Shown here piece after piece: positions 3,382 to 21,707 of a stretch of 22,377 nt of DNA. The notes under the pieces were generated by a model. The model saw only the letters and a program-made list of their open reading frames with translations. It had not been told where the DNA came from and made no database searches. Made by a program: the position numbers and the translations under genes. The DNA comes from a virus: positions 1 to 22,377 of IMG/VR virus record IMGVR_UViG_3300029812_000173; one strand, 5' to 3'. Position 1 is the first letter of the stretch. Each line of letters opens with the position of its first letter.

Positions 3382-4055
3382 TGATGGTTGAAAATTGGGA
3401 ACAATACAAAGATTTAGAATACTACCCAGACAGAGTCTGTAAGTGTGGTTGTGGTGGTAGAATAAAAGTACATCCCATGCATAAATATCATGGTATTCCT
3501 AGATTTATGCATGGTCATAATTCTAGAAGTAATCATGGAATGAAAGGAAAACATCATACTGAAGAATCCAAACAGAAAAGTCGGGAAAGCCATATAGGTA
3601 GACCCTCGGAGAAAAAAGGTAAAACATATGTCAAAATGTATGGTGAGGAAAAGACAAAAGAAATAAAACAAAAAATAGGGAAGGCTCATAAGGGCAAAGA
3701 ACTTTCTGAAGAACATAAGCAGAAAATAAGAGATGCAGAGACGGGCCCCAATCATTATAATTGGCAAGGAGGACCTGCTCTTGGTGATTATCCATTAGAA
3801 TTTAACAAAGAATTTAAAGAATTTATTAGAGAAAGAGATAATCATACTTGCCAACTTTGTGGGAAAACAAAAGAGGAAAATGGAAGAAAATTAGATGTCC
3901 ATCATATTTATTATGACAGAGCTAACTCTGATATGGATTCAGAAAGATTTGTAGCCCTTTGTCGGGGTTGTAATTCAAAAGTAAATTTTAATAGAGAGTA
4001 TTGGACTCAATTTTTCCAACAGAAACTGGAAGAGTTAAGGTATGAATTAGTGTAG
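3381..4055 (+). CDS. Free-standing HNH homing endonuclease with Cys-rich and NUMOD-like modules
   Basis: This 224-residue protein cuts DNA with an HNH (beta-beta-alpha metal) domain and is best read as a selfish homing endonuclease. Domains in order: a Cys-rich module CKCGCGGRI (residues 20-28) followed by HKYHGIPRFMHGH (34-46); two NUMOD3-like DNA-binding motifs (GKHHTEESKQKSRESHIG around 56-73 and KGKELSEEHKQKIRD around 104-118); and the nuclease at about 145-212, with CQLC at 157-160, the catalytic-type HH at 174-175 and CRGC at 194-197. The first 77 codons resemble the 8045 gene, with a 50-bp stretch 49/50 identical at DNA level. It starts in a one-base overlap with the J gene's TAA, with a second ATG at 3384. 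It sits between two structural genes and disrupts neither. The true cut site is unknown. Confidence 0.9.
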   Translation: MMVENWEQYKDLEYYPDRVCKCGCGGRIKVHPMHKYHGIPRFMHGHNSRSNHGMKGKHHTEESKQKSRESHIGRPSEKKGKTYVKMYGEEKTKEIKQKIGKAHKGKELSEEHKQKIRDAETGPNHYNWQGGPALGDYPLEFNKEFKEFIRERDNHTCQLCGKTKEENGRKLDVHHIYYDRANSDMDSERFVALCRGCNSKVNFNREYWTQFFQQKLEELRYELV

Positions 4056-8044: not shown

Positions 8045-9226
8045 ATGACAAAAGAAGAGTGGAATAAATATAAAGATTTAGAATACTATCCAGACAGAGT
8101 CTGTAAGTGTGGTTGTGGTGGAAGAATTAAGGTTCGACCATCACATAAATATGACGGTATTCCTATATATCTCACGGGGCACCATGTAGGAAGTGGCGTT
8201 TCTCAGATCGCCCTAAACACAAGAGTAGAAGTAGAAGCAATATTATCAGGTAAGAAAGAAGCCCCATTCTGTGCATGTGGTTGTGGCAATAGAATAGAGG
8301 TAAAGTTTTACCATAAATATCAAGGTATTCCTAAGTTTATTTCCGGGCATACTAGTAGAACAAGAGAGAAAACTAATGTTGGTAGGAAACATACTCCAAG
8401 AGAAAATAGAACTTGTGCTGCCCCAGGCTGTGATATCACCTTTGAATGTAAAGTAAATGATCCTAAGAAATACTGCTGCTCCGGACATGCTGGGAAAGGA
8501 AAAAGTAGTCGACGTAAAATTCCTATGGAAACAAGAGTTTGTGAATGTGGTGAATGTGGTGAATGTGGTGAATGTGGAGAAACTTTTGAGTGCAAAATAA
8601 ACAGTAAACAAAGATTTATTCGCGGGCATCATGCAAAAGGCAAGAATAATGGAATGTGCGGAAAACATCTTACTAAAGAAACAAAACAGAAGCAAAGGGA
8701 AACAGTTTTAATAGGTTATGAAAATGGAAGAGTGAATCCCTTTAAGGGTAAGCACCATACTGAGGAGTGCATACAAGAAAGTCGTGAAAGACAGAAAAAG
8801 AATTGGCAGAATCCTGAGTATATTTCAAAACAAATGGTAGCAAGACATGTTAAACCTAACAGACCCGAGAAGTTTTTAGATAAGTTATTCCAACAACTCT
8901 TTCCTAATCAAATTAGATATATTGGCGATGGTAAAGATAAAGATTCTATTGTAGCAGGAAAGGTTCCGGATTTTATTTTTACTGATGGCCAAAAGAAAAT
9001 CATAGAATTCTTCGGTGACTACTGGCACGGAGAGGAAAGAATTGGTATTCCTAACAAACAGCATGAGCAAGAGAGAATAAATTGTTTCGCTCAATATGGT
9101 TATCAAACTTTAATTATCTGGGAACACGAGTTAGAAAATATTGATGAATTAATTGAAAAACTTATCTTATTTAATAGAGGAGTAAAATCATGCCAGCAAA
9201 TACAGGGACGCAGGTTGTTAGTTTAA
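8045..9226 (+). CDS. Homing endonuclease, Vsr/EDxHD-type PD-(D/E)XK core with repeated Cys-rich modules
   Basis: This 393-residue protein shares its N-terminal module with the HNH enzyme at 3381 but has a different nuclease. Four Cys-rich units can be seen: CKCGCGGRI (20-28), CACGCGNRI (76-84), CAAPGC with FECK (124-136) and the expanded CECGECGECGECGETFECK (166-183). The first two are followed by an H-K-Y-x-G-I-P-type segment. NUMOD3-like motifs follow (about 204-252). The C-terminal 120 residues resemble the very-short-patch-repair/EDxHD superfamily: VPDFIF at 307-312, IIEFFGDYWHGEE at 319-331 (acidic residues and His328) and CFAQYGYQTLIIWEHEL. Residues 379-393 are read from the next gene's ribosome-binding site and start, a 37-base overlap suggesting that insertion replaced the original C-terminus. 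Upstream SD is poor. Confidence 0.85.
   Translation: MTKEEWNKYKDLEYYPDRVCKCGCGGRIKVRPSHKYDGIPIYLTGHHVGSGVSQIALNTRVEVEAILSGKKEAPFCACGCGNRIEVKFYHKYQGIPKFISGHTSRTREKTNVGRKHTPRENRTCAAPGCDITFECKVNDPKKYCCSGHAGKGKSSRRKIPMETRVCECGECGECGECGETFECKINSKQRFIRGHHAKGKNNGMCGKHLTKETKQKQRETVLIGYENGRVNPFKGKHHTEECIQESRERQKKNWQNPEYISKQMVARHVKPNRPEKFLDKLFQQLFPNQIRYIGDGKDKDSIVAGKVPDFIFTDGQKKIIEFFGDYWHGEERIGIPNKQHEQERINCFAQYGYQTLIIWEHELENIDELIEKLILFNRGVKSCQQIQGRRLLV
8542..8577 (+). repeat. Four exact tandem copies of a 9-bp coding repeat
   Basis: The unit TGAATGTGG occurs four times end to end, encoding C-E-C-G-E-C-G-E-C-G-E-C-G inside one Cys-rich module of the 8045 endonuclease. The sister modules have a single C-x-C-G-x-C-G-type unit, so this is probably a recent in-frame expansion by replication slippage. 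The copies are identical at the DNA level, which also argues for recency. Confidence 0.92.
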
Positions 9227-10371
9227 TACATCGTTCGGCGGCTTCAAGTCCGAATGTAAATAGACGACATCAGGATATCAGGCAGTGCGGAATTTATCAA
9301 GGGGGCCGTTTGACTGCTGTAGTTGGTCTAGCTGCTTCTTTATCCGAATTGGTTTGTGAAATTTCTGATGGTACTCATCAAGTAAGAATTCAAACAACTG
9401 CTGCAATAAGTTTAACTGCTGTAATTGCTAGTCCTTATTTCGTATTGCGGTGGACGTATACTGGAGCCGCTTCTGATTTTATGGAGGTATTGGCAGTGGC
9501 TGCTCCATTAGCTAATGATTTGGTAATAGGTAAGTGTGTTTTTGCCGGAGCAGTTTTAACCGGATTTGATTACGGGGATGCCGCCTATCCAAGAAGTACT
9601 CCTAATACTCAGGATTTATTTCTGAAAGTAGAATCCACAGAAGATACTGAGCTAAAAGTGAGAATTCGAGCGGGTAGAATTCATAATTATGTAGGAAATA
9701 TTGATGTAGCTGATCAAAAAAGCGACTTATTTACAGTGCCTACAAGTAATTCCAGAGTTGATTTACTTTATCTAGATAAAGATGGAAATGTTGCTATTGA
9801 TTCTTCAGGGACTCCTGCAGCAACTCCGGTAGCTCCTAATTATAATGGAAAATTGGTTCTAGCTGAAATAACATTAGCTTCTACCAGCACTAATATTACT
9901 GACAGTATGATAAAAAATGTTAGAAATTGGGTAGCATTACCCCAAAGTGTAGATGATACCACAATAGAAAAAAGTGCTACTGGAGCACTTCAAGTCAAAT
10001 CCACGGGAGTAGGTTTACAACTAAGAACTGGAACTTTATCCGGTTATGATTTTACTCAGGCGGATCTTACTCAAGATGGTAATTGGCATGATTTAGATTT
10101 ATCCGCCATAGTTCCAGCCGGAGCTATAGCTGTTAAACTAGAGATAGGTGTTTTAAAAGCAACTCTGGCAGCAGAAACTTTTATGGTTAGAAAGAATGGA
10201 AGTCTTGACGAATATAACGTAGGCAAAGTTTCTGCAACAGTGGATAATAGAGGAGCTTTTGGAGAAAAAACTGTTGGTGTTGACACTAATAGAATTATTG
10301 AGTATAAAGAAACAAAATCAACTGGGGTACTTGATGTTATCCAGATAGTAATAAAAGGTTGGTATCTATAA
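9190..10371 (+). CDS. Tail fibre / appendage protein, paralogue 1
   Basis: This 393-residue structural protein pairs with the next gene. The N-terminal 270 residues of the two align throughout: NVNRRHQDIRQCGIYQGGRLT against NERNINIQPRGIYKGGYLT, PYFVLRWTY against PYLVLRWAY, and GKCVFAGAVLTGFDYGD against GKCVFSGAVLTGFDYTD. The C-terminal 110 residues are unrelated and beta-rich (LSAIVPAGAIAVKLEIGVLKATL, ending IIEYKETKSTGVLDVIQIVIKGWYL), probably a different distal tip or a trimerisation domain. The start is set by GAGGAG about 8 bases upstream. It lies inside the tail of the endonuclease gene. A shared attachment half with a variable tip is typical of phage fibres. Which protein contacts the receptor is not known. 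Confidence 0.75.
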   Translation: MPANTGTQVVSLIHRSAASSPNVNRRHQDIRQCGIYQGGRLTAVVGLAASLSELVCEISDGTHQVRIQTTAAISLTAVIASPYFVLRWTYTGAASDFMEVLAVAAPLANDLVIGKCVFAGAVLTGFDYGDAAYPRSTPNTQDLFLKVESTEDTELKVRIRAGRIHNYVGNIDVADQKSDLFTVPTSNSRVDLLYLDKDGNVAIDSSGTPAATPVAPNYNGKLVLAEITLASTSTNITDSMIKNVRNWVALPQSVDDTTIEKSATGALQVKSTGVGLQLRTGTLSGYDFTQADLTQDGNWHDLDLSAIVPAGAIAVKLEIGVLKATLAAETFMVRKNGSLDEYNVGKVSATVDNRGAFGEKTVGVDTNRIIEYKETKSTGVLDVIQIVIKGWYL

Positions 10372-10400
10372 AATAATAAATTGATTGTAGGAGAAATACT

Positions 10401-11531
10401 GTGGGAAGTGTAAATCACGGAAGTCAGGATTTATCATATAACTTTTATGAAGAATTGACTGCATTAAATTTTAATGAGCGTAATATTAATATTCAGCCGA
10501 GAGGTATATATAAAGGGGGATATCTAACTAAAGTTACCGATTCTGAAGTTACTTTATCACCTCTTACCGTTGAGATAGGTGATAGTACTGTTCAAGTAGC
10601 TATAAGTACCTCCGTTTCGGCTACACTTAATAATACAACGTTAGATTCAGGGACAATTTCTTCAGGAACTCCATATCTAGTTCTTCGGTGGGCATATGCG
10701 GCAACTGCTTCTAATTATTTTGAAGTTCATGCAGTGGCAGCAGTTGCTGCTGCTCAGGCTAATGATATAATTATTGGTAAATGTGTCTTTTCGGGAGCAG
10801 TTTTAACCGGATTTGATTATACTGATAGGACTTCGATTGGTACTTATGGTTCTTTCCTTAAAGTTGAAGCAACGCCAGATACTGAACTATATGTTCGAGT
10901 CCGAGGGGGTAGGGTTCAATTAGGGGATTCGGTAAAAATTGTAGCAGATCAAAAGGTAGGGCCTTTTAGTGTGCCTGCTCCCCCTAATTCCAGATGGGAT
11001 TTGGTATACTTGGATACAAATGGAGTTCCTCAGATATATAAAGGAGCTCAAGCAGTTAGTCCTACAGTACCACCTCATGCTGGAAAATTGGTGTTAGCTC
11101 AGATTTTGGTAGTAAATGGAGTCTCGGATATTGCGGCTGCTAATATTTATGATTTTCGAACTTGTATATCAGCACCCGCGATTCCGGATAATAGTTCTCT
11201 TGAATTAAATAGTTTGGGGCAATTAGCAGTTAAAGATTTTGCTTCTGCAATAGCTTCTGATGGCTACATAAGGTTTGGAGGTTTAATTTTTCAATGGGGT
11301 GTTGAGAGTGTAGCTCAAGGTACTACAGTAAATGTTACTCTTCCAATAACCTTTCCTAATAATCATTTTTGGGCAAGTGCTAGACCTGGGATAAATACAG
11401 GATTTATCGGGTGTAATGAAAACGCATCTACTGGAGCTTTGCCTCTTAGTGTTTCTCAAATTCAATTGAGAAATGGTTATGGGGCAGGGGGAGGTAATCG
11501 GGATATGTATTGGTTTGCAATAGGAAACTAA
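10401..11531 (+). CDS. Tail fibre protein, paralogue 2, with gp53-like tip domain
   Basis: This 376-residue protein starts at GTG 10401, preceded by AGGAG at good spacing. Residues 1 to about 270 are homologous to the preceding fibre protein. The last 90 residues resemble the gp53-like C-terminal fibre domain: DGYIRFGGLIFQWGVES, then VTLPITFPNNHFWASA, and a terminal GAGGGNRDMYWFAIGN. In that family the opening GYI.....G...QWG and the closing YW.AIG motifs mark a trimeric receptor-binding tip. The gene ends one base before the first DUF115/GT42-like gene, so the fibre and glycan genes are transcriptionally continuous. Confidence 0.82.
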   Translation: MGSVNHGSQDLSYNFYEELTALNFNERNINIQPRGIYKGGYLTKVTDSEVTLSPLTVEIGDSTVQVAISTSVSATLNNTTLDSGTISSGTPYLVLRWAYAATASNYFEVHAVAAVAAAQANDIIIGKCVFSGAVLTGFDYTDRTSIGTYGSFLKVEATPDTELYVRVRGGRVQLGDSVKIVADQKVGPFSVPAPPNSRWDLVYLDTNGVPQIYKGAQAVSPTVPPHAGKLVLAQILVVNGVSDIAAANIYDFRTCISAPAIPDNSSLELNSLGQLAVKDFASAIASDGYIRFGGLIFQWGVESVAQGTTVNVTLPITFPNNHFWASARPGINTGFIGCNENASTGALPLSVSQIQLRNGYGAGGGNRDMYWFAIGN

Positions 11532-11532
11532 T

Positions 11533-12294
11533 ATGGCGATTACTATTAAACATAATAAATCAACTAGTGTGATTCCAATTAAGAATACAAAGTGTAAAGC
11601 ATTTCCTATCACAGATATTCTTCCCGGCCAAGCGTGGAAAGATAAAACTTGTTTTCTTATTGGAGGAGGTCCATCTTTAGCAAATTTTGATTTTGAACTT
11701 ATAAGAAATGAATTATCTATAGGGGTAAATAAATCATTCACTAAATTTCCTACTACGGTTAACTATATCATGGATACCCGTTTCTATGATACGATTACTT
11801 ACCCTTCTAAAGATAATGTTGATTTACATAGAAAATGGAAGCAATACACAGGAATTAAAGTTTTCTTACGCCATAGTGTAAAATTTAAGTTTGATAGTAG
11901 TGTATACTATGTAAATAATCTAACTAGTAGCTGTTTAAGTTTAAACCTTAAGAAAGGAATTTGGGGGGGAAATAACTCGGGATTTGGGGCACTAATGCTT
12001 GCGTGTGCTTTAGGTTGTAAACGAATAGGACTTTTAGGATATTCGATGAAAGTTCAAGGTGGGGGTAAGAAAATAAAGACACATTGGCATTCTGGCTACT
12101 CGTTTCAAAATGTAAAATCTTTTCAGCCCAAGCTTGATAAGTTTAAGACATGTTTTGATAACTTTGCTGATGTAATAGCAGCGCAGGGCATTGAAGTGGT
12201 TAATTTGGTTAAGAAAAGTGAAGATAGCGCACTTGAATGCTTCCCAAAAGATTCCTTAGATAATTTCTTGAGTAAGAGCAAGATTGGTGTATAA
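11533..12294 (+). CDS. DUF115/Maf- or GT42-sialyltransferase-like protein, copy 1
   Basis: This 253-residue protein has the Rossmann-type signature of the DUF115 family (motility accessory factor Maf, 6-hydroxymethylpterin kinase-like) and of the Campylobacter CstI/CstII-type sialyltransferases (GT42): TCFLIGGGPSLANFDFELI at residues 39-57, then GVNKSF, and later NNSGFGALMLACALGCKRIGLLGYSM at 147-172, followed by HWHSGYS. Maf proteins are known to transfer pseudaminic or legionaminic acid to flagellin, and GT42 enzymes transfer sialic acid. Encoded with NeuA- and NeuB-like proteins, this one is a candidate nonulosonate transferase. Catalysis is inferred, not seen. SD AGGA lies 8 bases before ATG 11533. 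The stop overlaps a -10-like TATAAT. Two paralogues occur at 12429 and 15432. Confidence 0.72.
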   Translation: MAITIKHNKSTSVIPIKNTKCKAFPITDILPGQAWKDKTCFLIGGGPSLANFDFELIRNELSIGVNKSFTKFPTTVNYIMDTRFYDTITYPSKDNVDLHRKWKQYTGIKVFLRHSVKFKFDSSVYYVNNLTSSCLSLNLKKGIWGGNNSGFGALMLACALGCKRIGLLGYSMKVQGGGKKIKTHWHSGYSFQNVKSFQPKLDKFKTCFDNFADVIAAQGIEVVNLVKKSEDSALECFPKDSLDNFLSKSKIGV

Positions 12295-12295
12295 T
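12268..12295 (+). promoter_or_regulatory. Sigma70-like promoter at the head of the glycan gene run
   Basis: TTGAGT at 12268-12273 and TATAAT at 12290-12295 are separated by 16 bases. The -10 box is a perfect consensus match and the -35 box matches at TTGA. It overlaps the 3' end of the preceding gene. The predicted start point, about 7 bases past the -10, falls at 12302-12304, directly where the 5' arm of the structured element begins. That coincidence supports it as a real promoter. Confidence 0.5.
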
Positions 12296-12302
12296 TATAA
12301 CA

Positions 12303-12400
12303 TAGGGATAATGTTAATAGGATGGTGGCGAAAGCTGGATTTAGCGGGAAAACAGGGTTATCCCCAATAATGGAGTTTCCTCCCTGCCCATCCTATTAAC
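12303..12400 (+). ncRNA. Candidate structured RNA element with a pseudoknot (leader of the 12429 gene)
   Basis: Bases 12313-12325 (GTTAATAGGATGG) are the exact reverse complement of 12388-12400, giving a perfect 13-bp stem around 62 bases. GGGATAA at 12305-12311, just outside the stem, is exactly complementary to TTATCCC at 12358-12364 inside the loop, so the two helices cross as a pseudoknot. Inside the loop, GGC 12327-12329 and GCT 12334-12336 close a GAAA tetraloop. CAGGG 12353-12357 can pair with CCCTG 12382-12386, or GGAG 12372-12375 with CTCC 12380-12383. It fills most of a 134-bp gap in a genome with almost none, and it begins at the start point predicted for the promoter above. No T-run follows, so it is not an ordinary terminator. 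No known riboswitch or ribozyme consensus was recognised. It ends 28 bases before ATG 12429. Confidence 0.6.
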
Positions 12401-12428
12401 TTATCAAGAGAGAAAGTGGAAGATACAA

Positions 12429-13232
12429 ATGAGACTTAATCATACTAGTAGGGCAAAACGGATTGCCCAAGATCATAAGTCTTTTAAGAATTCACCTCTA
12501 ATTATCAATAAAACTCCTCCAAAGGTGTTAACTTCCATTTCTTCTATAATAGGTGCAAAGCAAAGAGATAGGGTTTTCTTAGTAGGTAGTGGGCCCAGTT
12601 TACATAATTTTAATTTTAAAGTTTTAAAGAATGAAGATACTATTTGTGTAAATAGTTCGGTATTTGATGTTCCACGAGCTAACTTCTTTATTACTAAAGA
12701 TTATTTCTTTTTAAGAAAGTATCTTATTAATTGTTTACATTCTAAAAGTAATGGAGCTAAAATTTGGAATTCTGTTGTAAAGATTTTTGTCGCCTGTTAC
12801 GTTGGCGGAAGTCTTCAAGATATTAATGATGAGATTGTCGATGTATCTCATAAAATTAACTATGACTTGTGTCCAATTGATTGGGTTATCAAGAATGATA
12901 AACAACATGGAATTGGTTTATCATTGAATGATTTTAGATGTGGAGTGGATAGTGGTTACGGAGCATTGCAGCTTGCAGTTTTACTGGGCTATAAAGAAAT
13001 ATTTCTGGCAGGATATGATATGTGTGCCCAAAAGAAAACACATTATCATGATAGATATGGTAAAAGAGATGTAGAGGATTTTCAGAAAAAACTTGATGGG
13101 TATTTTCAATTTTATGTAAGGGCTTTTCAAGAATTAAAAAATATGAATCAAGTAAAATTGTACAGTTGCTCTATTATTAGTAAATTCAATGTACACATTG
13201 AGTATGTTCCTATAGAGAAAGTTTTGAGATGA
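12429..13232 (+). CDS. DUF115/GT42-sialyltransferase-like protein, copy 2
   Basis: Of the three paralogues, this 267-residue protein looks most like the CstI/CstII sialyltransferases. It has VFLVGSGPSLHNFNF at residues 49-63, VDSGYGALQLAVLLGYKEIFLAGYDM at 173-198, a HYHD at 205-208 where GT42 enzymes carry the catalytic histidine segment, and an ending QVKLYSCSIISKFNVHIEYVP that resembles the KLYCLCP-type final strand. It lacks a membrane anchor and begins with a basic stretch. It is preceded by the structured element 12303-12400 and a modest GGAAG-type ribosome-binding site. Its stop overlaps the next gene's start by ATGA. A role as a CMP-nonulosonate-using transferase is inference from fold and neighbours. 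An alternative is a DUF115 protein without transferase activity. Confidence 0.72.
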   Translation: MRLNHTSRAKRIAQDHKSFKNSPLIINKTPPKVLTSISSIIGAKQRDRVFLVGSGPSLHNFNFKVLKNEDTICVNSSVFDVPRANFFITKDYFFLRKYLINCLHSKSNGAKIWNSVVKIFVACYVGGSLQDINDEIVDVSHKINYDLCPIDWVIKNDKQHGIGLSLNDFRCGVDSGYGALQLAVLLGYKEIFLAGYDMCAQKKTHYHDRYGKRDVEDFQKKLDGYFQFYVRAFQELKNMNQVKLYSCSIISKFNVHIEYVPIEKVLR

Positions 13233-13900
13233 AACACATTACAATATTGATTCCAACGAGAGGTCGGATAGAAAAGGTAAAGAAAACTTTAGAATCAATT
13301 CCTGAACTTGATTATATTGATACTATGATTATTTGTGATAATTGTTATGAAACTCTAGAGTTTGTTCGGAAATTAAATAATCCGAAGATTTATGCAGCGG
13401 CAGTTGTTTCTCGTCATGGAGAATTTGTGGGTTCCGTTGCTTGTAAGAATACTTATAGTAGTGATGTTGAGGATGGTTTACTATACGCTACTGACGACAT
13501 TATTTTCCAAGAGAATGCTATCCAAAGTGCTTTCGAGTGTTTCAATAAGAACTTTCCAGATGACGATGGTGTTGTTGGATTTGTTCAAAAAGGAAATGCT
13601 TTTCATCCAACTGGAGTAGGGTTGGTAGGTCAGAAATTTTTGAGAAGGTACCCTGATAAGAAACTATTTTTTCCAGGGTATTTTCATTTTGCTTGTCAAG
13701 AAATATATGATTTGTGTCAAAAATTAGGAGGAAGGTTTGTTCAAGAAGAGCAAGCGGTAGTTTTACACAAACATCCTTGTAATTATAGAGAGGAAATGGA
13801 TCAAACTCATAAGGACGCTCGAATTAGAAAACGTGAAGATCACGCTCTTATAAAAGAAAGAAAAGCAAAAGGTTTGATATGGGGCTATGATGAGGATTAA
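13229..13900 (+). CDS. GT-A fold glycosyltransferase-like protein (GT2 type, divergent)
   Basis: This 223-residue protein opens with ITILIPTRGRIEKVKKTLESI, the nucleotide-sugar-binding beginning of GT2-like enzymes, and carries LLYATDDIIFQ (residues 84-94), where TDD would be the metal-binding DxD-type motif. A later PGYFHFACQEIYDLC segment occupies the acceptor-side region and the C-terminus is strongly charged. It is shorter and more diverged than the three canonical GT2 proteins further down and shares no visible DNA identity with them. It starts in an ATGA overlap with the preceding gene and overlaps the next by 14 bases, so it is translationally coupled on both sides. The donor and acceptor sugars cannot be told from sequence. 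Confidence 0.75.
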   Translation: MKHITILIPTRGRIEKVKKTLESIPELDYIDTMIICDNCYETLEFVRKLNNPKIYAAAVVSRHGEFVGSVACKNTYSSDVEDGLLYATDDIIFQENAIQSAFECFNKNFPDDDGVVGFVQKGNAFHPTGVGLVGQKFLRRYPDKKLFFPGYFHFACQEIYDLCQKLGGRFVQEEQAVVLHKHPCNYREEMDQTHKDARIRKREDHALIKERKAKGLIWGYDED

Positions 13901-14711
13901 TCAAGTTTGTATTTCTCCTAGTTTACAATATATGTCGAGTAGGTTTAGAAGTAAATATAAGCTTGAAGAGTATTCTAATCTATTAGAACCTGCAATATTT
14001 TTTGGCTGCTATTCTGTTCATTCAATTAGACAAATTTGTAACTATAAATCATTAGCGGTGGTTGTTTGGGGAGGAACTGATGCTAAACTTTTACGACAGT
14101 ATCTAGATTGTAAAAGAGAGGGGAAAAATCTTGGTATCTGGTACTCAAAATTAATTCAGCAACAACATGTACGGCATATAGCTATTTCAGAGTATATTGC
14201 TGAGGATCTTAGAAAAGTTGGATTGCAGTTTTCATGTGTTCCTATTAATACTGTATTGCCTGAGAAGTTTAAGGTTTGTAAACCGGGTAAACTTCTATAT
14301 TCATACGGCTATACGCGGCGACCTGCTGTCTATAACGAGGATCTTGTTAAGAGGGTACTTAGGCAGCTAGGAAATGTCCAACTCGTGCAAGGGGAAATTG
14401 GGACGGATAAGACAATTCCGTACGAAGGCATGTCAGCCATTTATAGTAAGTGTTTCATGGGCCTAAGACTCACCGCACATGATGGTCTTCCTAATACAGT
14501 TATTGAATTAGGTCTTATGGGCATCCGGTGTATCTATAATGGATGTTTGCCTAATGCTGTTAAATGGATTGGAATTGAGGACATAGTTGCAAACATCCAT
14601 AAAGAACAAGAACGAATAGGTTTTCCAAATGAAGAGATTGCAAGGAAGATGCGGGAGTATATTACTATATCTGATGATTGGTTAGACACAGCTTATTGGA
14701 ATTACATATGA
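13887..14711 (+). CDS. GT-B fold glycosyltransferase (GT4-like)
   Basis: This 274-residue protein resembles a compact GT4-type retaining glycosyltransferase. The N-terminal part shows AVVVWGGTDAKLL (residues 57-69) and a HIAISEYIAEDLRKVGL segment (97-113) with the typical 'S-x-Y/F-x-A' helix. The C-terminal part has MGLRLTAHDGLPNTVIELGLMG (191-212), where Glu207 would fit the donor-phosphate/ribose-binding glutamate region of GT-B enzymes. At 274 residues it is shorter than usual (about 350-400), so one half is trimmed. Two ATGs (13887, 13890) follow a GGGG run, and the second has the better spacing. The frame overlaps the previous gene by 14 bases and ends in an ATGA overlap with the next. 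Confidence 0.75.
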   Translation: MMRINQVCISPSLQYMSSRFRSKYKLEEYSNLLEPAIFFGCYSVHSIRQICNYKSLAVVVWGGTDAKLLRQYLDCKREGKNLGIWYSKLIQQQHVRHIAISEYIAEDLRKVGLQFSCVPINTVLPEKFKVCKPGKLLYSYGYTRRPAVYNEDLVKRVLRQLGNVQLVQGEIGTDKTIPYEGMSAIYSKCFMGLRLTAHDGLPNTVIELGLMGIRCIYNGCLPNAVKWIGIEDIVANIHKEQERIGFPNEEIARKMREYITISDDWLDTAYWNYI

Positions 14712-15430
14712 AACTAAAAGTATCAGTCATCACAACTCTATATAATTATCGAGAATATATAGAAGAATGTATAGTATCATTTTTAAATCAGGATTTTGAG
14801 TGCTCAGAAATAGTAATTGTAGATGATGCTTCTACTGATAATCCATTGGAAATAATTCAAAAATACATAGGTGACCGCGTCAGATATATTGTATTGCCAA
14901 AGAATAGAAATTATTCGAACGCTAAGAATGTAGGAATAAAGGCTTCGCACTCAGAAATTTTAGTTATGCTGGATGCTGATGATATGTTAACAACTACCGG
15001 CATAAGTTCAAGATACGAAAAATTAATGGAAGGTTTTGATTTTGTTCACGGGCCTTGTTTGAGATTAGAAAGAGGGGGTACTCGACGAGATCCAATGTGG
15101 GAAAAATGGTTAAGTACCAAAAATCCTCTTTGGATTCATGCTCAAGGAGCTATGTTAAGAAAGGATATCCATCGTAAAATAGGTTTATACGATCCTTGGT
15201 TTTGGGCTCAAGGCGATAGGGAAATGTTTTTACGTATTGGGAATGCAGATTTTAAGATAGGTGCAGTAGAAAAAGATGTTGCAATATATCGCATACATAA
15301 AGAACAGATGTATAAGAGTCCACGAAAAAGAAAATATAAAGAAGAATTAAATACTAGAATGTTCAAAGTTTTAAAAGAAAGAAAAAATGGTGATTTTTCT
15401 GATCTAGAAATACTAGAAAGTGCTATGTAA
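14708..15430 (+). CDS. GT2 family glycosyltransferase, paralogue A
   Basis: This 240-residue inverting-type GT2 enzyme is predicted to transfer a sugar from a nucleotide donor. It has KVSVITTLYNYREYIEECIVSFLNQ at the start, VIVDDASTDNP (residues 36-46) for the nucleotide base, and VMLDADDML (86-94), which contains the DxD-type metal site. QGAMLRKDIHRKIGLYD and a Q-G-D-R-E-M-F-L acceptor motif follow. The frame extends upstream to a TTG at 14678, but ATG 14708 in the ATGA overlap is the natural start. It belongs to a set of three GT2 domains (with 16326 and 18060) that share an identical 31-bp DNA segment around the VDDASTDNP codons (14814-14844 here). It ends one base before ATG 15432. Confidence 0.88.
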   Translation: MKLKVSVITTLYNYREYIEECIVSFLNQDFECSEIVIVDDASTDNPLEIIQKYIGDRVRYIVLPKNRNYSNAKNVGIKASHSEILVMLDADDMLTTTGISSRYEKLMEGFDFVHGPCLRLERGGTRRDPMWEKWLSTKNPLWIHAQGAMLRKDIHRKIGLYDPWFWAQGDREMFLRIGNADFKIGAVEKDVAIYRIHKEQMYKSPRKRKYKEELNTRMFKVLKERKNGDFSDLEILESAM

Positions 15431-15431
15431 T

Positions 15432-16322
15432 ATGAGATTACAAAGAAGAACTTCGGTCATAAAAAGAAAGGGAGTAATTCCTATAAAAAAGAGGTGTAAG
15501 GTATCTTTGAGTGTAAAAAAGGAATCTGTAGATACAAAGAAAAAAATTATTCCTCCAAAAAATCCTATTAATTTATCTGAGTATAAAAAAAGTGATACTT
15601 GTGTGTTGCTTGGTTCTGGTCCTTCAATATGTAATATAACTCCGGAAGAATGGGAAGTAATTGAAAAGTATGATTCTTGTGCAGTAAATAACTGGGTATA
15701 TCATCCGACATTCGTTCCTAAATTTTATTTTATAGAAACAAAGTGGTATGGGTATGATATTATTCGACGTAGGTTACAAGAAAAATTTGAAGCCTATAAA
15801 GATGTTGTTTTTCTTTTTCCAAGAGAGAAGAAAATTAGAAATCCTCGAGAAAAAGGGAAAGGTACACAACTTCTTCGAGATGTAGCTAAGGGTTTCAAAC
15901 GAAGAGTTGAATACAATTTGGTTTCAAGAGATAGAAAACGCACTCATCCTATCTATACCGCTGATTATGTAATACGTCCAGATAGATTTACTAAAAGCTA
16001 TGATATGTCTATTACCTGTGTTTTTGAATTTTTGCTTCGAATGGGATATAGTAGAATTATTCTATATGGTATAGATTTATTAACTTCTTGGTATTTTTGG
16101 ACTGGAAATGATTTTAAGTATGGAGAAGTCCATCACCAATGGAATAAGGAACATGAGGACAAAGACCCGATCCTACCACATAATACACACAAAATTAAGG
16201 ATTTCATTATTGATTTCAATGAAAGATGGATGAAACCATACCATAAAGAAATAGTTATTGGGCATATTGATACAGCCCTTTATCCCCGTTTGAGATATGT
16301 TAACATACTAGAAGAATTTTAA
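15432..16322 (+). CDS. DUF115/GT42-sialyltransferase-like protein, copy 3
   Basis: This 296-residue protein is the most divergent of the three. About 50 very basic residues (RRTSVIKRKGVIPIKKRCKVSL and similar) precede the Rossmann core, which starts TCVLLGSGPSICNITPEEW at residues 56-74. AVNNWVY, KFYFIETKWYGYD and a long charged insert follow. Then ITCVFEFLLRMGYSRIILYGIDLL occupies the position of the CstII-type LGYKEIYLSGIDF strand, and EVHHQWNKEHED supplies histidines near the expected catalytic area. ATG 15432 is preferred over the GTG at 15420, since it follows the upstream stop by one base. The ribosome-binding site is weak, so expression may depend on coupling to the GT2 gene. The transferase role is inferred from fold and from nearby NeuA and NeuB. 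Confidence 0.68.
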   Translation: MRLQRRTSVIKRKGVIPIKKRCKVSLSVKKESVDTKKKIIPPKNPINLSEYKKSDTCVLLGSGPSICNITPEEWEVIEKYDSCAVNNWVYHPTFVPKFYFIETKWYGYDIIRRRLQEKFEAYKDVVFLFPREKKIRNPREKGKGTQLLRDVAKGFKRRVEYNLVSRDRKRTHPIYTADYVIRPDRFTKSYDMSITCVFEFLLRMGYSRIILYGIDLLTSWYFWTGNDFKYGEVHHQWNKEHEDKDPILPHNTHKIKDFIIDFNERWMKPYHKEIVIGHIDTALYPRLRYVNILEEF

Positions 16323-16325
16323 GAT

Positions 16326-18059
16326 ATGAATTCTACAATTTCTATCATATGTGCTCTCTATAACTATCGTCAATATGTTGCAGATTTTGTGCATTCAGTA
16401 TTGCGTCAAACTTACACAAATTGGGAATTAATAATTGTAGATGATGCTTCTACTGATAATCCGGAGGAAGTTTTACATCAATTTAGTGATGAATCGAGAA
16501 TTTATTATACTAAACTTGAAAAAAACCATGGTTATAGTTTTGCAAGAAACACTGGAATACTTCAATCTGTAGGAGATTTTATTGTTATAGCTGATGCAGA
16601 TGATATGTTAACAGATGATTCTATTGAAGTTCGATTAAAAGCTCTACTAGCCCATCCTGAAAAACTTTGGTGCCATGCTGATGGAAAGAAAATGGAGATT
16701 GATGGACAAGTGCTCTATAAATCAAAAGAACGTGGTACCCGGATGGAAAGATATGGTGATATAGAGGACAATCATAGACAGATTCATGGAGGTTCTATGA
16801 TGATGTGTAAAAAATTCCATGAAAAATTGGGGCTATATGATGATAAACTTAAATTTTCTTCAGATAATGAAATGGTTAAAAGAGCATTTCGATTTGGGAT
16901 AATTCCTTTATATGTACCTAAAGTGGTTACATACTATCGACAGCACCCAAATCAAATGCATAGATCTCTGGAGAAGAAAAGAATTATAAATTCAAGATTA
17001 AATGTAGATATAATTAAAGAACAAATTGATAGTAGTGTAGAAAGAAGATTCCAAGAAGGAATTACTATAAATAATACTAAATTATTGAAAAAAGATAGAA
17101 TGAAGATATTTTTACCTATATCACCTAATCCAAAATCTGGAAAATCTTTCTTTTTCCGACGGTTATTAAAAGAATGGAAAAAGGATATGCCTTTTGATAT
17201 TACTACTAATCCAGATAATTTTGTTGATGTTTCAATTGAAAGTGCTAGAATTAAACATAAGAATTCAAGATTTAAAGTAATTAGATTTGATGGAGTTTAT
17301 CATAATACTGGTCAAAATTTTAAGCAAAAAAATTCTTCAATGGTTACAAGTTTAGGTATTGCTGATGGAGCAATTTATCAATCTAATTTTGCTAAGAGTA
17401 TGTGTCGTGAATATTTAGGGAAATTTGATGGTTTTGAATCCGTAATTTATAATGGGGCAGATCCAGAATTTTATGCCAAAGCAATTCCAATACGTATGAA
17501 CTATGAAAAAGTATTTGTATCTTTTTCAAAATGGCGGCCACATAAAAGATTGAGGGATATGATCGAAAGTTTTTTATTGGCTGATATGGAAAATTCAGTA
17601 TTATTGATTGCCGGTGATTTAAGCCGATCAGGTCTAACTCAATCTGACATTACCCGGTATTTTAGTATTTCTAACGTAAAATATTTAGGAATCTTAAATC
17701 AAAATCAAATGGCGGGATACTTGAAAATAGCTACTGCTGCTGTTCATTTATGTTGGATTGATGCATGTCCAAATAGCGTAGTAGAAGCTATTGTAGCAGG
17801 AGTTCCTGTAATTTGTAATAATAATGGAGGGACGGCTGAATTAGTGGCTAAAGCTAATGGATACGTTTGTACAACTGAAAAACCTTATGATCGAAAACCA
17901 ATTGATTTGTATCATCCACCAAGATTTAGTTATAGGATAGTAGCTGAAGCTATGATACACGCTGCAAATGAGAAAAGAAAAGTAGTAAATGATCATGTTT
18001 TGATTTCAAATATTGCTGAACAGTATAAAAATTATATTCAACGAATAGGAGAATCTTAA
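16326..18059 (+). CDS. GT2-GT4 fusion glycosyltransferase
   Basis: This 577-residue protein is two enzymes in one chain. Residues 1-250 form a GT2 domain (ISIICALYNYRQYV; VDDASTDNP at 38-46; IADADDML at 88-95; GGSMMMCKKFHEKLGLYDD). Residues from Met259 form a GT4-type GT-B domain (IFLPISPNPKSGKSFFFRRLL; FDGVYHN; IYQSNFAKSM; VIYNGADPEFY; VSFSKWRPHKRLRDMI; and CPNSVVEAIVAGVPVICNNNGGTAEL with its E-x7 region). The GT2 half aligns end to end with the stand-alone 18060 protein, whose last residues match the linker here. Met259 (ATG at 17100) may be the start of a formerly separate GT4 gene. Two successive additions to one glycan chain would be logical. The stop is followed at once by ATG 18060. 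Confidence 0.88.
   Translation: MNSTISIICALYNYRQYVADFVHSVLRQTYTNWELIIVDDASTDNPEEVLHQFSDESRIYYTKLEKNHGYSFARNTGILQSVGDFIVIADADDMLTDDSIEVRLKALLAHPEKLWCHADGKKMEIDGQVLYKSKERGTRMERYGDIEDNHRQIHGGSMMMCKKFHEKLGLYDDKLKFSSDNEMVKRAFRFGIIPLYVPKVVTYYRQHPNQMHRSLEKKRIINSRLNVDIIKEQIDSSVERRFQEGITINNTKLLKKDRMKIFLPISPNPKSGKSFFFRRLLKEWKKDMPFDITTNPDNFVDVSIESARIKHKNSRFKVIRFDGVYHNTGQNFKQKNSSMVTSLGIADGAIYQSNFAKSMCREYLGKFDGFESVIYNGADPEFYAKAIPIRMNYEKVFVSFSKWRPHKRLRDMIESFLLADMENSVLLIAGDLSRSGLTQSDITRYFSISNVKYLGILNQNQMAGYLKIATAAVHLCWIDACPNSVVEAIVAGVPVICNNNGGTAELVAKANGYVCTTEKPYDRKPIDLYHPPRFSYRIVAEAMIHAANEKRKVVNDHVLISNIAEQYKNYIQRIGES
16416..16462 (+). repeat. 47-bp identical segment shared with 18150-18196 (first copy)
   Basis: The 47 bases coding TNWELIIVDDASTDNP in the fusion enzyme are identical, including silent positions, to 18150-18196 in the next GT2 gene. 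The 31 bases at its 3' end also occur at 14814-14844 in the first GT2 gene. The surrounding protein sequence is much less conserved, which suggests local gene conversion or recent partial duplication. Confidence 0.9.
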
Positions 18060-18848
18060 ATGCAACCTTTGGTTTCTGTTGTGAGCACTCTCTATAACTA
18101 TCGTGATTATGTTATAGATATGATTCATTCTGTTCAAAATCAAATACATACAAATTGGGAATTAATAATTGTAGATGATGCTTCTACTGATAATCCACTG
18201 GAAACAATATCCCCGTATCTCGCGGGTTCTCGACTCCAATACTTGCCGCTTCTTGAGAATCATGGTTATAGTTATGCTAAGAATGTAGGTATTCGTGCTT
18301 CAAGAGGCGAATACATTGTTATGATCGATGCTGATGATTTATTGTATGATGAATATTCTATTACTTATCGGTTAGAAGCCCTTTTAAAATATCCTGAAAA
18401 ACTTTGGTGTCATGGGGATTCTGTTAATCTTGAGCCTTCTGGGGATATTTGTACAACTTCAAATGCTCGAATGAAGCGTAGCGAACGAAGAAAAAGGATG
18501 AAGGCGGACGGAACTCTAGAAACGGGGTACAGCCACCGATTAATTCATTCTCAAACTATAATGGTGTGCAGAGAATTTCATAAAAAATTAGGATTATATG
18601 ATGAAAATCTTTGGTGTTCTTCAGATAATGAAATGTTTAGAAGAGCTCTCCGTTTTGGAATAATTCCTTGCTATATTGCGGATATAGTATCTTTATATCG
18701 TATACACCCAAATCAAATGCATAGATCCCCAGAAAAAAGAAAAATTATAACAGAACTTAAGAAACAAATTATTACTGATGTTGAAAGAAGATTTCAAGAG
18801 GGGATCAATGCTAGTAATACTCCACTTTTAGAGGAATTTGATGAGTAA
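18060..18848 (+). CDS. GT2 family glycosyltransferase, paralogue B
   Basis: This 262-residue GT2 enzyme closely resembles the N-terminal half of the preceding fusion protein. It has VSVVSTLYNYRDYVIDMIHSVQ, VDDASTDNP (38-46), NHGYSYAKNVGIRASRGEYIVMIDADDLL (68-96), LWCHGD, REFHKKLGLYDENLWCSSDNEMFRRALRFGIIP and HPNQMHRSPEKR. Its C-terminus, VERRFQEGINASNTPLLEEFDE, aligns with the linker that joins the two domains of the fusion enzyme. A GGAG ribosome-binding site lies in the 3' end of the upstream gene and the start codon directly follows that gene's stop. The reading frame overlaps neuA by 8 bases. Donor and acceptor are unknown. The duplication suggests that the two GT2 domains add similar sugars at successive or alternative positions. 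Confidence 0.88.
   Translation: MQPLVSVVSTLYNYRDYVIDMIHSVQNQIHTNWELIIVDDASTDNPLETISPYLAGSRLQYLPLLENHGYSYAKNVGIRASRGEYIVMIDADDLLYDEYSITYRLEALLKYPEKLWCHGDSVNLEPSGDICTTSNARMKRSERRKRMKADGTLETGYSHRLIHSQTIMVCREFHKKLGLYDENLWCSSDNEMFRRALRFGIIPCYIADIVSLYRIHPNQMHRSPEKRKIITELKKQIITDVERRFQEGINASNTPLLEEFDE
18150..18196 (+). repeat. 47-bp identical segment shared with 16416-16462 (second copy)
   Basis: This is the second copy of the segment coding TNWELIIVDDASTDNP, identical over all 47 bases to the copy in the GT2-GT4 fusion gene. Direct repeats of this size in the same orientation, about 1.7 kb apart, could recombine and delete or duplicate the GT4 half between them. Confidence 0.9.
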
Positions 18849-19542
18849 AAGAAAGAAAAAAATAGTTGGATTTATTCCAGCACGTGGAGGAAGTAAGGGT
18901 ATTCCGGGCAAAAATATTACAAATCTTTGTGGACTACCTTTGATAGCTTATACTATAATAGCAGCATATTTTTCTAAGCTGGATGAAGTTTGGGTAAGTT
19001 CTGATAATTCAGAAATTTTAGAAGTTGCAAAGGTATATGGAGCAAAAACTTTACAGCGTCCTATAGAACTTTGTCAAGATGATAGTACAACAGAAGAGGC
19101 GGTAGAACATTTTTTAAAGCATGTTAAATGTGATACCATAGTATTGATACAAGCTACTTCCCCTTTACTTACTTCGAAGGACATTGACCGAGGTATTGAA
19201 AAATTTTTAACAGGAAATTATGATTCTCTATTTAGTGTTATTAGAGAAACGGATATGCTTATATGGAAACTTAGTAAGAAAAGGAGATTTGAAAAGGAGA
19301 ATATTTATATTCAGCCGGCAAATTATAATCCACAAAATAGAATGCGGCGGCAAACTCGAGAAGAAAATGCTTACATGATAGAATCTGGAGGATTCTTTAT
19401 ATTCAGTCAACAATTCTTTAATCAAAATAAATGTCGTATGGGAGGGAGAGTAGGTTTTGTTGAAATACCTTTTTGGCAATCTTTTCAAGTGGACACAAAA
19501 ACTGACTTATCAAATATTTCTAAGGTGATGATTCATGGATAA
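18841..19542 (+). CDS. neuA: CMP-nonulosonate (sialic acid type) cytidylyltransferase, NeuA family
   Basis: This 233-residue enzyme is predicted to activate a nine-carbon sialic-acid-like sugar with CTP, giving CMP-sugar and pyrophosphate. The diagnostic N-terminal signature IPARGGSKGIPGKNI (residues 12-26) is intact, with Arg15 and Lys19 for CTP. SSDN (53-56), LIQATSPLL (102-110), NRMRRQTREENAYMIESGGFF (166-186) and VDTKTDL (217-223, with the metal-binding aspartates) follow the family order. The length is normal for a single-domain NeuA. The start is ATG 18841, with GAGG 6 bases upstream. A TTG at 18838 is in frame but unlikely. It lies 0.75 kb before the NeuB-like gene, and the two together make and activate the sugar. 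Whether the substrate is Neu5Ac, legionaminic or pseudaminic acid cannot be settled from these residues. Confidence 0.9.
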   Translation: MSKRKKKIVGFIPARGGSKGIPGKNITNLCGLPLIAYTIIAAYFSKLDEVWVSSDNSEILEVAKVYGAKTLQRPIELCQDDSTTEEAVEHFLKHVKCDTIVLIQATSPLLTSKDIDRGIEKFLTGNYDSLFSVIRETDMLIWKLSKKRRFEKENIYIQPANYNPQNRMRRQTREENAYMIESGGFFIFSQQFFNQNKCRMGGRVGFVEIPFWQSFQVDTKTDLSNISKVMIHG

Positions 19543-20272
19543 TGAATTTAAGCTATATCCTAACTCTAAGTATGTAGATTTTACAGCTATTTCTCAAATT
19601 CAACTTGATAGATTACAAAAGAAAACTTTAGTATCTGTTGAAATTGGTGCTTTTAAAGGAAATACTGTAGCTCAACTCCATCAACGATACGGAAATACTA
19701 TTCAAATTTATCCAATAGAGGCTTGTCCACTAAATTTTAGATATTTGAAGAGAAGATTTAAGAAGTTTAAAAATGTTAAACTTAGGAATATTGCTATTTC
19801 TGATGTAGATGGTAAAGAAAAATTCTATGTTATAAAACGAGATCCGGATGAAAAAAATCTTAGTTCAGAAGCTAATAGTTTATATGAATCATTTTTAAAG
19901 GATAAAGAATGGGCAGTTAATTATAAACAAATTGAAGTTCCAAGTCAAACACTTACTACTTTTTGTGAGAATGAAAATATAGATCAGATAGATTTTCTTA
20001 AGATAAATTGTGAAGGTGGAGAATATCGAATCTTTTCTAGAAGAAAATTGCTCTTTTTAAGAAAAGTTAATATACTTGATATAGCTATTCACGGAAAAAA
20101 TCGACAATTCTTAAATCTTGAGTTTGTACGTAAGAAATGCCATATTAATAGGCGATTAGTTGATTATGGATTTAAGTTAATTTGTGGATATAATTTAAAT
20201 GATTTATCTTATATTCCGATTAATCATGTTCGACAAATATGGATTAGAAAAAATGCTCCATGGAAAAAATAA
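19535..20272 (+). CDS. FkbM-family SAM-dependent methyltransferase
   Basis: This 245-residue protein has a class I methyltransferase fold of the FkbM family, which commonly O-methylates sugars and polyketides in surface-glycan and secondary-metabolite clusters. The SAM-binding motif VSVEIGAFKGNTV is at residues 33-45, the acidic post-II residue lies in IEACPLNFRYL (61-71), a VKLRNIAISDVDGKEKFYV segment follows, and the family signature IDQIDFLKINCEGGEYRIF is at 149-167, with the usual Asp-Val replaced by Asn-Cys. The start overlaps the neuA stop by 8 bases and has AAGGTG at good spacing. No transmembrane segment is visible. A likely job is capping or decorating the glycan made by the neighbouring transferases. 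The exact acceptor is unknown. Confidence 0.85.
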   Translation: MDNEFKLYPNSKYVDFTAISQIQLDRLQKKTLVSVEIGAFKGNTVAQLHQRYGNTIQIYPIEACPLNFRYLKRRFKKFKNVKLRNIAISDVDGKEKFYVIKRDPDEKNLSSEANSLYESFLKDKEWAVNYKQIEVPSQTLTTFCENENIDQIDFLKINCEGGEYRIFSRRKLLFLRKVNILDIAIHGKNRQFLNLEFVRKKCHINRRLVDYGFKLICGYNLNDLSYIPINHVRQIWIRKNAPWKK

Positions 20273-20290
20273 TAGAAAGTGAGGATAATT

Positions 20291-21127
20291 ATGAGAGATA
20301 GAGATTCAAAATGTTGTATTGTGGCAGAAATAGGAATTAATCATTCAGGAAATTTAGAAACAGCCAAAAAAATGATTGAAGCGGCCGCAGTTGCGGGATG
20401 TAATTTCGTAAAATTTCAAAAACGAACTATCGACCTTGTATATACACCGGAGGAACTTGATCGTTATCGAGAATCACCTTGGGGAACAACAAATAGAGAA
20501 CAAAAATTAGGTTTAGAATTTGAAAAAGAAGAGTATGATATAATAGATACTCATTGTAGAAATAGTGGAATAGGTTGGTTTGCTTCACCTTGGGATGTGC
20601 AATCAGTTAACTTTCTTATGCAATATAGCTGTCCGTTCATAAAAATTGCCTCACCAAGTATTACTAATTTTAATTTGTTACGGGCAGTACGAGATACAGG
20701 AAAACTTGTAATTCTATCCACAGGAATGTCTACTGAAGAAGAGGTCAAGAAAGCTGTTGATTTTCTTGGAGATCAAGTAAAATATATTTTAGCATGTACT
20801 TCTACGTATCCTACAAAGATAGAAGAGATGAATCTTAAATTTATTCAAACTCTTCAAAAAGAATATCCTGATATAGAAATAGGTTTTTCTAATCACCATC
20901 CAGGTATATTATTTGCTGCAACTTCAGTAATTTTTGGGGCTAAGATGGTTGAATTTCATATGACTCTTGATAGAGCGATGTACGGATCTGATCAAGCAGC
21001 TAGTATTGAAGTTCCTGGGGTATTCAAATTAGTTAAATACATTCGAGATTTAGAAATAGCTTTAGGATCTGGTAGTTGGAGTGTATTTGATAGTGAGAAA
21101 GAAATCAAGAAAAAATTAAGGAAATAA
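20291..21127 (+). CDS. neuB: Nonulosonate synthase, NeuB family, lacking the C-terminal SAF domain
   Basis: This 278-residue protein is a TIM-barrel sialic-acid-type synthase, condensing phosphoenolpyruvate with an N-acetyl-hexosamine such as ManNAc. Signatures: VAEIGINHSGN (11-21), KFQKR (41-45), WFASPWD (96-102), LSTGMSTEEEV (142-152), ACTSTYPTKIEEMNL (168-182), GFSNHHPG (198-205) and EFHMTLDRAMYGSDQAASIE (221-240). The two metal ligands of the family, His202 and His223, are present with the expected spacing of 21. Standard NeuB is about 340-350 residues and ends in an antifreeze-like SAF domain that completes the partner's active site. Here the chain stops after the barrel and a methyltransferase begins one base later. 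GTGAGG at 20279 is the ribosome-binding site, so ATG 20291 is the start rather than the GTG. Confidence 0.88.
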   Translation: MRDRDSKCCIVAEIGINHSGNLETAKKMIEAAAVAGCNFVKFQKRTIDLVYTPEELDRYRESPWGTTNREQKLGLEFEKEEYDIIDTHCRNSGIGWFASPWDVQSVNFLMQYSCPFIKIASPSITNFNLLRAVRDTGKLVILSTGMSTEEEVKKAVDFLGDQVKYILACTSTYPTKIEEMNLKFIQTLQKEYPDIEIGFSNHHPGILFAATSVIFGAKMVEFHMTLDRAMYGSDQAASIEVPGVFKLVKYIRDLEIALGSGSWSVFDSEKEIKKKLRK

Positions 21128-21128
21128 T

Positions 21129-21707
21129 ATGCAAAGTTGGGGTAAATGCATAGGATGTTTAAAAACCGGAATTAGTTTAGTCGACAAGAATTTAAAACAT
21201 ATTCTTGAATTTGGTGTTTGGAAGGGTAGAACACTTCGATTAATACGTAACAGTTTTGACGATTCATTTCAAATTTTTGGGTTTGATTCTTTTATAGGAC
21301 TTCCTTGTGATTGGATTGGTGGTAGAAGAACAGGTGGAACCATCAATAAGGGGCATTTTAGTACTGATGGTGAAATTCCAGATATTCCAAATGTTACTTT
21401 TTTTAAGGGATGGTTTGAGGATACCTCACTTGAATACCAACAAATAGCTCAAAGTATTGGATTGATTCATATTGATGGTGATTTATATTCATCTGCAAAA
21501 ATTGTCTTATTTAATCTAAATGATTTTATTGTTAAGAATACTATTTTAGTTTTTGATGAATGGCGATATGGTATTAATCAAGAATCTAATAATGAGAAAC
21601 AAGCTTTCTATGAGTGGGTAGAAAAATTTAATAGGAAGTATGAATTTTCAGAATTTCCCAGGTGGAAACATCCAAGTATGGAGCAAAAGTTAGTTAGAAT
21701 ACTATAA
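21129..21707 (+). CDS. TylF/macrocin O-methyltransferase-like SAM-dependent methyltransferase
   Basis: This 192-residue protein has the layout of the TylF/MycE-type sugar O-methyltransferases. The SAM-binding loop is LEFGVWKGRTLRLI (residues 26-39), FGFDSFIGLPCDW (50-62) carries the acidic residue for the ribose, and GLIHIDGDLYSSAKIVL (111-127) and ILVFDEWRYG (139-148) supply the aspartates that, in the family, bind magnesium and act in catalysis. It is a little shorter than typical members (about 240). It starts one base after the neuB-like stop, with AAGGAAA as the ribosome-binding site, so the two are co-translated. It is the second methyltransferase of the island and a plausible O-methylator of the finished glycan or the nonulosonate. 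Confidence 0.84.
   Translation: MQSWGKCIGCLKTGISLVDKNLKHILEFGVWKGRTLRLIRNSFDDSFQIFGFDSFIGLPCDWIGGRRTGGTINKGHFSTDGEIPDIPNVTFFKGWFEDTSLEYQQIAQSIGLIHIDGDLYSSAKIVLFNLNDFIVKNTILVFDEWRYGINQESNNEKQAFYEWVEKFNRKYEFSEFPRWKHPSMEQKLVRIL

Follow-up and report, generated by a model that had tools for sequence, protein, structure and literature searches.

The ompA and papA leaders form 5'-terminal stem-loops that stabilise bacterial mRNAs. An mRNA is more stable when structure at its 5' end hinders RppH and RNase E (PMC3997798). RNase III processes RNAs of the phages lambda, T7 and T3, and its targets exceed a minimum double-stranded size of 22 nt (PMC5371410). In HK022, putL lies just downstream of PL, is approximately 70 nt in length and acts over a distance of at least 10 kb (PMC9378689). 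The locus described here may be a lineage-specific promoter joined to an mRNA 5' leader, which would shield the 5' end of a glycosyltransferase-cluster transcript and leave its ribosome site free; this reading, the one we prefer, is put forward tentatively. An element of this kind, a promoter with a 5' hairpin leader that is lineage-specific and represented by two sequences, is an ordinary one.

The window, i.e., the whole stretch of DNA that was analysed, is a 22.4-kb viral contig (22,377 nt). The element occupies a 134-nt gap at positions 12295–12428. An earlier note, made from the letters of the window, had described the rest of the strand as almost gap-free, and this gap is indeed one of very few on the plus strand. 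On the 5' side of the gap are tail genes and then a gene of a phage alpha-2,3-sialyltransferase-like family (11533–12294). The gene directly 3' of the gap (12429–13232) is of the same family, and beyond it are glycosyltransferases, a CTP_transf_3 (NeuA-like) protein, an FkbM methyltransferase and NeuB. The downstream glycosyltransferase, NeuA and NeuB genes are collinear, and the cluster as a whole, which follows the tail genes at 12429–21707, also contains TylF/Methyltransf_24-type methyltransferases. Such a gene content points to synthesis or modification of a sialic-acid-like glycan by the phage.

The only relative found to carry the element is IMGVR_UViG_3300031673_000090 (L002), which has the same gene order. 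Amino acid identity to the window is 67–72% across the two flanking genes, with the 72% in the one directly downstream of the element. Both flanking genes are also present in four other relatives (L003, L012, L090 and L094), where they overlap by 4 nt or are at most 32 nt apart and the element is absent. The promoter and leader are therefore confined to the lineage of the window and L002, and their origin would most simply be a gain in that lineage. No further homologue was found in viral contigs, searched by flanking-gene DNA and protein and by the pattern of the element, or in bacterial genomes; the other pattern hits in viral contigs are all in unrelated contexts. A similarity search of phage and plasmid records gave no informative match, and a two-sequence covariance model run on six related records found no further copy, its one minus-strand hit being the palindrome itself. 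The earlier note recognised no known consensus and proposed a comparison with Rfam. At gathering level that comparison matched nothing in the window, in L002 or in L003, and at E values up to 10 it gave only chance-level matches; a leader seen in just two uncultured phages would be expected to be absent from Rfam. The features of the element in the window are as follows.

12268–12295, plus strand: promoter-like site TTGAGT-N16-TATAAT; the -10 (12290–12295) overlaps the stop codon of the upstream gene
12302–12303, plus strand: predicted transcription start, approximately 7 nt past the -10
12305–12311 with 12358–12364, plus strand: proposed crossing helix; the complementary letters are real, a structural role is unsupported
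12307–12311, plus strand: outer helix, 5' strand GATAA, predicted to pair with 12401–12405; at 3900–3904 in L002
12313–12325, plus strand: main 13-bp helix, 5' strand of the inverted repeat; three two-sided changes in L002
12328–12330, plus strand: inner 3-bp helix, 5' strand GCG, after a 2-nt bulge UG in the minimum-energy fold
12331–12384, plus strand: apical region of 54 nt, which holds the GAAA mini-hairpin, CAGGG/CCCTG and the crossing 3' arm at 12358–12364
12385–12387, plus strand: inner 3-bp helix, 3' strand UGC in the minimum-energy fold; same letters in L002
12388–12400, plus strand: main 13-bp helix, 3' strand of the inverted repeat; paired changes in L002
12401–12405, plus strand: outer helix, 3' strand TTATC, predicted in both folds; letters common to both phages
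12406–12428, plus strand: purine-rich leader with ribosome site, largely unpaired, before the ATG at 12429

The letters of the promoter described in the earlier note are present. Promoter-like sites are no commoner at positions 9000–16000 than in shuffled sequence (25 versus 26.5); the support for a promoter at 12268–12295 comes from its conservation in L002. The block TATAATTATAACATA (12290–12304) is identical there and has no other exact copy in four related records, and the -35 of L002 is weaker (CTGTGT). The predicted start near 12302 is 3 nt before the 5' crossing arm, and not on the first base of that arm, where the earlier note had put the 5' end of the transcript.

The perfect 13-bp inverted repeat is present as reported. 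Perfect repeats of at least 13 bp with a spacer of up to 150 are expected 0.17 times per shuffled window and are unremarkable on the scale of the window; when the 134-nt gap itself was shuffled 20,000 times by mononucleotides, no such repeat arose, so that inside the gap the helix exceeds chance. In L002 it has the form ATTAATAGGGCGG/CCGCCCTATTAAT, where three positions are changed on both sides and 13 of 13 pairs are kept, i.e., the compensatory changes that had been proposed as a check are seen in one relative. Controls in which the partner strand is slid by 1–3 columns show no paired changes versus three in the true register. Accidental matching of three differences per 13-nt arm, in both position and letter, has a chance of about 1 in 7,700 by our own arithmetic (286 x 27), and a two-sequence shuffle control for paired changes has low power (69/500). 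Of these three changes, two are neighbours and may be a single event.

Secondary structure modeling shows a nested extension that was overlooked in the first reading: GATAA pairs with TTATC past one bulged U. This outer pairing is predicted both in the window fold and in the L002 fold, with pair probabilities of 0.90–0.996 at the three pairs checked. The letters of the inner GCG/UGC helix are found in both phages and the pairing is possible in both, although the minimum-energy fold of L002 prefers UGGC/GCCA at this point. In the minimum-energy fold the whole stem has approximately 21 pairs with bulges of 1 nt and 2 nt. Folding z is about -2.3 for the window element and for the L002 element alike. 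The leader after the stem is predicted to be open, with positions 12406–12416 unpaired at probabilities of 0.97–1.0, and its segment CAAGAGAGAA is conserved in L002.

The apical region is shorter in L002, and its 50% identity at aligned positions is not above that of shuffles (P 0.19). It contains the GAAA-capped mini-hairpin GCGAAAGC, and the letters that would pair CAGGG (12353–12357) with CCCTG (12382–12386) are also present, both as first described. Comparison of the two phages gives identities of 85–88% for the helix strands and leader versus 68–75% for the flanking coding DNA and 50% for the apex. Nearly every letter conserved between the two phages falls within a single bulged rod, the -10 block or the leader with the ribosome site. 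As modeled, the element is a long hairpin with bulges, which has the conserved TATAATTATAACATA block on one side and an open, purine-rich ribosome site on the other.

The element resembles the ompA and papA leaders in having a stem a few bases from the predicted 5' end and an unpaired ribosome site downstream. It differs in that it belongs to a phage mRNA, the helix is longer and bulged, the apex is large and variable and the start site is a predicted one; in L002, moreover, a second structured block comes first. The preferred reading of a promoter with a shielding leader is as follows. The gap at 12295–12428 would be an inserted promoter and leader, parting two genes that in other relatives adjoin or overlap. 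The sugar-cluster mRNA would be transcribed from the -10 (12290–12295) with a start near 12302, and its 5' bases would fold into GATAA/UUAUC, a bulged U, 13 bp, a bulged UG, GCG/UGC and a loose apex. The hairpin would begin about five bases from the 5' end, the stem starting at 12307, and would end right before the unpaired purine-rich ribosome site. By analogy with the known leaders, the rod may shield the mRNA from 5'-end-dependent decay while translation initiation is left free, and the cluster could be expressed independently, not only via read-through from the tail genes. We infer transcription from this site, its start and a stabilising role of the hairpin. If this is true, a cargo cluster of sugar-modifying genes has been uncoupled from tail-gene transcription by an acquired promoter and structured leader, in one lineage and not in its neighbours.

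The leader is approximately 100 nt in the window and 220 nt in L002, and the layouts differ. An extra block of about 120 nt (L002:3770–3890), absent in the window, is found between the L002 promoter and the hairpin. It is closed by a 9-bp stem GTAGACTGA/TCAGTTTAC and is bordered by imperfect direct repeats TAATTATAACATA/TAATTATGATGT. With this added distance the L002 hairpin is not 5'-terminal, and the stem nearest to the start is GTAGACTGA/TCAGTTTAC. The block was either gained by L002 or lost by the window between the repeats. A T-arm-like sequence CTGGGTTCGAGTCCTGG is located inside it. Relaxed ARAGORN reports a tRNA-like domain in the block (tRNA-Gln ctg), a candidate that was rejected: standard ARAGORN finds none, and relaxed hits are at chance level, with 69 of 2000 shuffles giving them and about one found in every kilobase of these genomes.

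The main rival to 5'-end shielding, itself on the unlikely side, is that the hairpin is chiefly a site for the host's RNase III, which would split the tail-gene transcript from the glycosyltransferase transcript or trim the leader. Like the RNase III hairpins of the T7, T3 and lambda operons, it is a long bulged hairpin between cistrons and ahead of a ribosome site. Its approximately 21 pairs with small bulges amount to about the two helical turns of double strand that such hairpins have, at a borderline length, and an unconserved apical loop fits this reading as well. It differs from those hairpins in being near the minimum length and bulge-interrupted and in having its own promoter directly upstream, which lowers the need for processing; cleavage here is putative.

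Quite unlikely is a reading in which the arms are a DNA inverted repeat, i.e., a small inserted element or a protein site, with a perfection that comes from template-switch correction and not from an RNA function. The insertion is lineage-specific, and template switching from arm to arm can produce paired changes without selection on an RNA. The insert-like second block of L002, bordered by an inverted repeat and the imperfect direct repeats, would also be in keeping with it. Nevertheless, both extensions of the helix, outer and inner, are conserved along with the ribosome-site leader, all of them on one strand of an expressed cluster, and no more copies are found in related records or, by pattern, in viral contigs.

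It is improbable, in our estimate, that the element is an undescribed regulatory RNA leader of phage glycan-modification clusters, in which the conserved bulged rod would be a platform for binding a protein or polymerase and the apex would be exchangeable; the leader might act, e.g., as an antiterminator or switch. Another proposal is a cis-acting antiterminator RNA like put of HK022, which would modify RNA polymerase where a long operon begins. The likeness is in the position, a structured RNA that directly follows a promoter and precedes a long cluster of phage genes, here of about 9 kb. This reading is very unlikely, since put has two stem-loops in about 70 nt (PMC9378689) whereas both sequences here have a single long hairpin with a variable apex, there is no match to an Rfam sequence family, and the two leaders are unlike in size and layout.

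The earlier note had as its main proposal a pseudoknot, in which a 7-bp helix crosses the 13-bp helix in a riboswitch, a ribozyme or an exonuclease-blocking RNA. The crossing complement exists as letters and is geometrically possible, and 2.7% of shuffled loops contain a 7-bp crossing complement by chance (8.9% if either 30-nt flank may give the arm). Its structural role does not survive the comparison with L002, where the 3' arm is absent and the loop has no TTATCC. Of six testable crossing pairs in the alignment, two are broken, two are gapped and two are retained. The longest crossing match in L002, the 6-bp ATGATG/CATCAT, is elsewhere and has the length expected by chance. Energies point in the same direction: the nested fold is -36.9 kcal/mol versus -26.9 kcal/mol with the crossing arms free plus -7.8 kcal/mol for an isolated 7-bp duplex, before any pseudoknot cost. 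With the 3' arm missing in the only homologue, the apex unconserved and a nested competitor in both phages that uses the 5' arm, the pseudoknot is highly improbable. The 5' end tucked into a loop, which the note took as the topology, is not conserved, since in L002 the hairpin lies approximately 120 bases further from the predicted start.

No positive evidence was found for a riboswitch, ribozyme or exonuclease block, and Rfam gave no ribozyme or riboswitch family at E values up to 10. The window sequence by itself allows a 7-bp 5' helix to be drawn across a second helix, as in HDV-like ribozymes. That candidate was rejected: there is no 3-bp P3 beside P1 (no pairing between bases after 12325 and bases before 12358) and no J4/2 motif with a catalytic C, and the first helix is missing in L002. 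Homologues without the helices had been named as evidence against the original proposal; L002 lacks the crossing helix and retains the 13-bp helix. A structured, transcribed leader under selection at a predicted start is a plausible part of that proposal, with the 13-bp helix, the promoter block and the ribosome-site leader all conserved, and the pseudoknot is the part that fails. A single-sequence pseudoknot that looks convincing can fail on the first homologue.

A 25-codon open frame runs across the hairpin at 12322–12399 and ends at a TAA in the 3' arm. That it is a leader peptide coupling translation to the fold is the least probable of the readings, for although L002 has an 18-codon counterpart in frame, which starts with GTG and shares the stop in the 3' arm, the common residues are only those encoded in the helix strands, the start context is poor and two short open frames arise by chance fairly often. 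An intrinsic terminator was also considered and rejected: the hairpin lacks the GC-rich stem with a T run, a scan of the sequence did not report it and the sequence after the stem is TTATCAAGAG.

Elsewhere in the window, two genes with NUMOD3 motifs are located between tail genes (3381–4055 and 8045–9226). The first is an HNH endonuclease, both start with a CKCGCGGRIKV motif and they look like free-standing homing endonucleases. A look for signs of a temperate lifestyle in four partial records found no tyrosine integrase. The second large gap of the plus strand (567–1204) contains a minus-strand frame of 110 aa (718–1050), for which no Pfam or PHROG match was found. GC-rich inverted repeats, AGGCCTCCTCGCCT and AGGCATTCTTGCCT, lie on either side of this frame.
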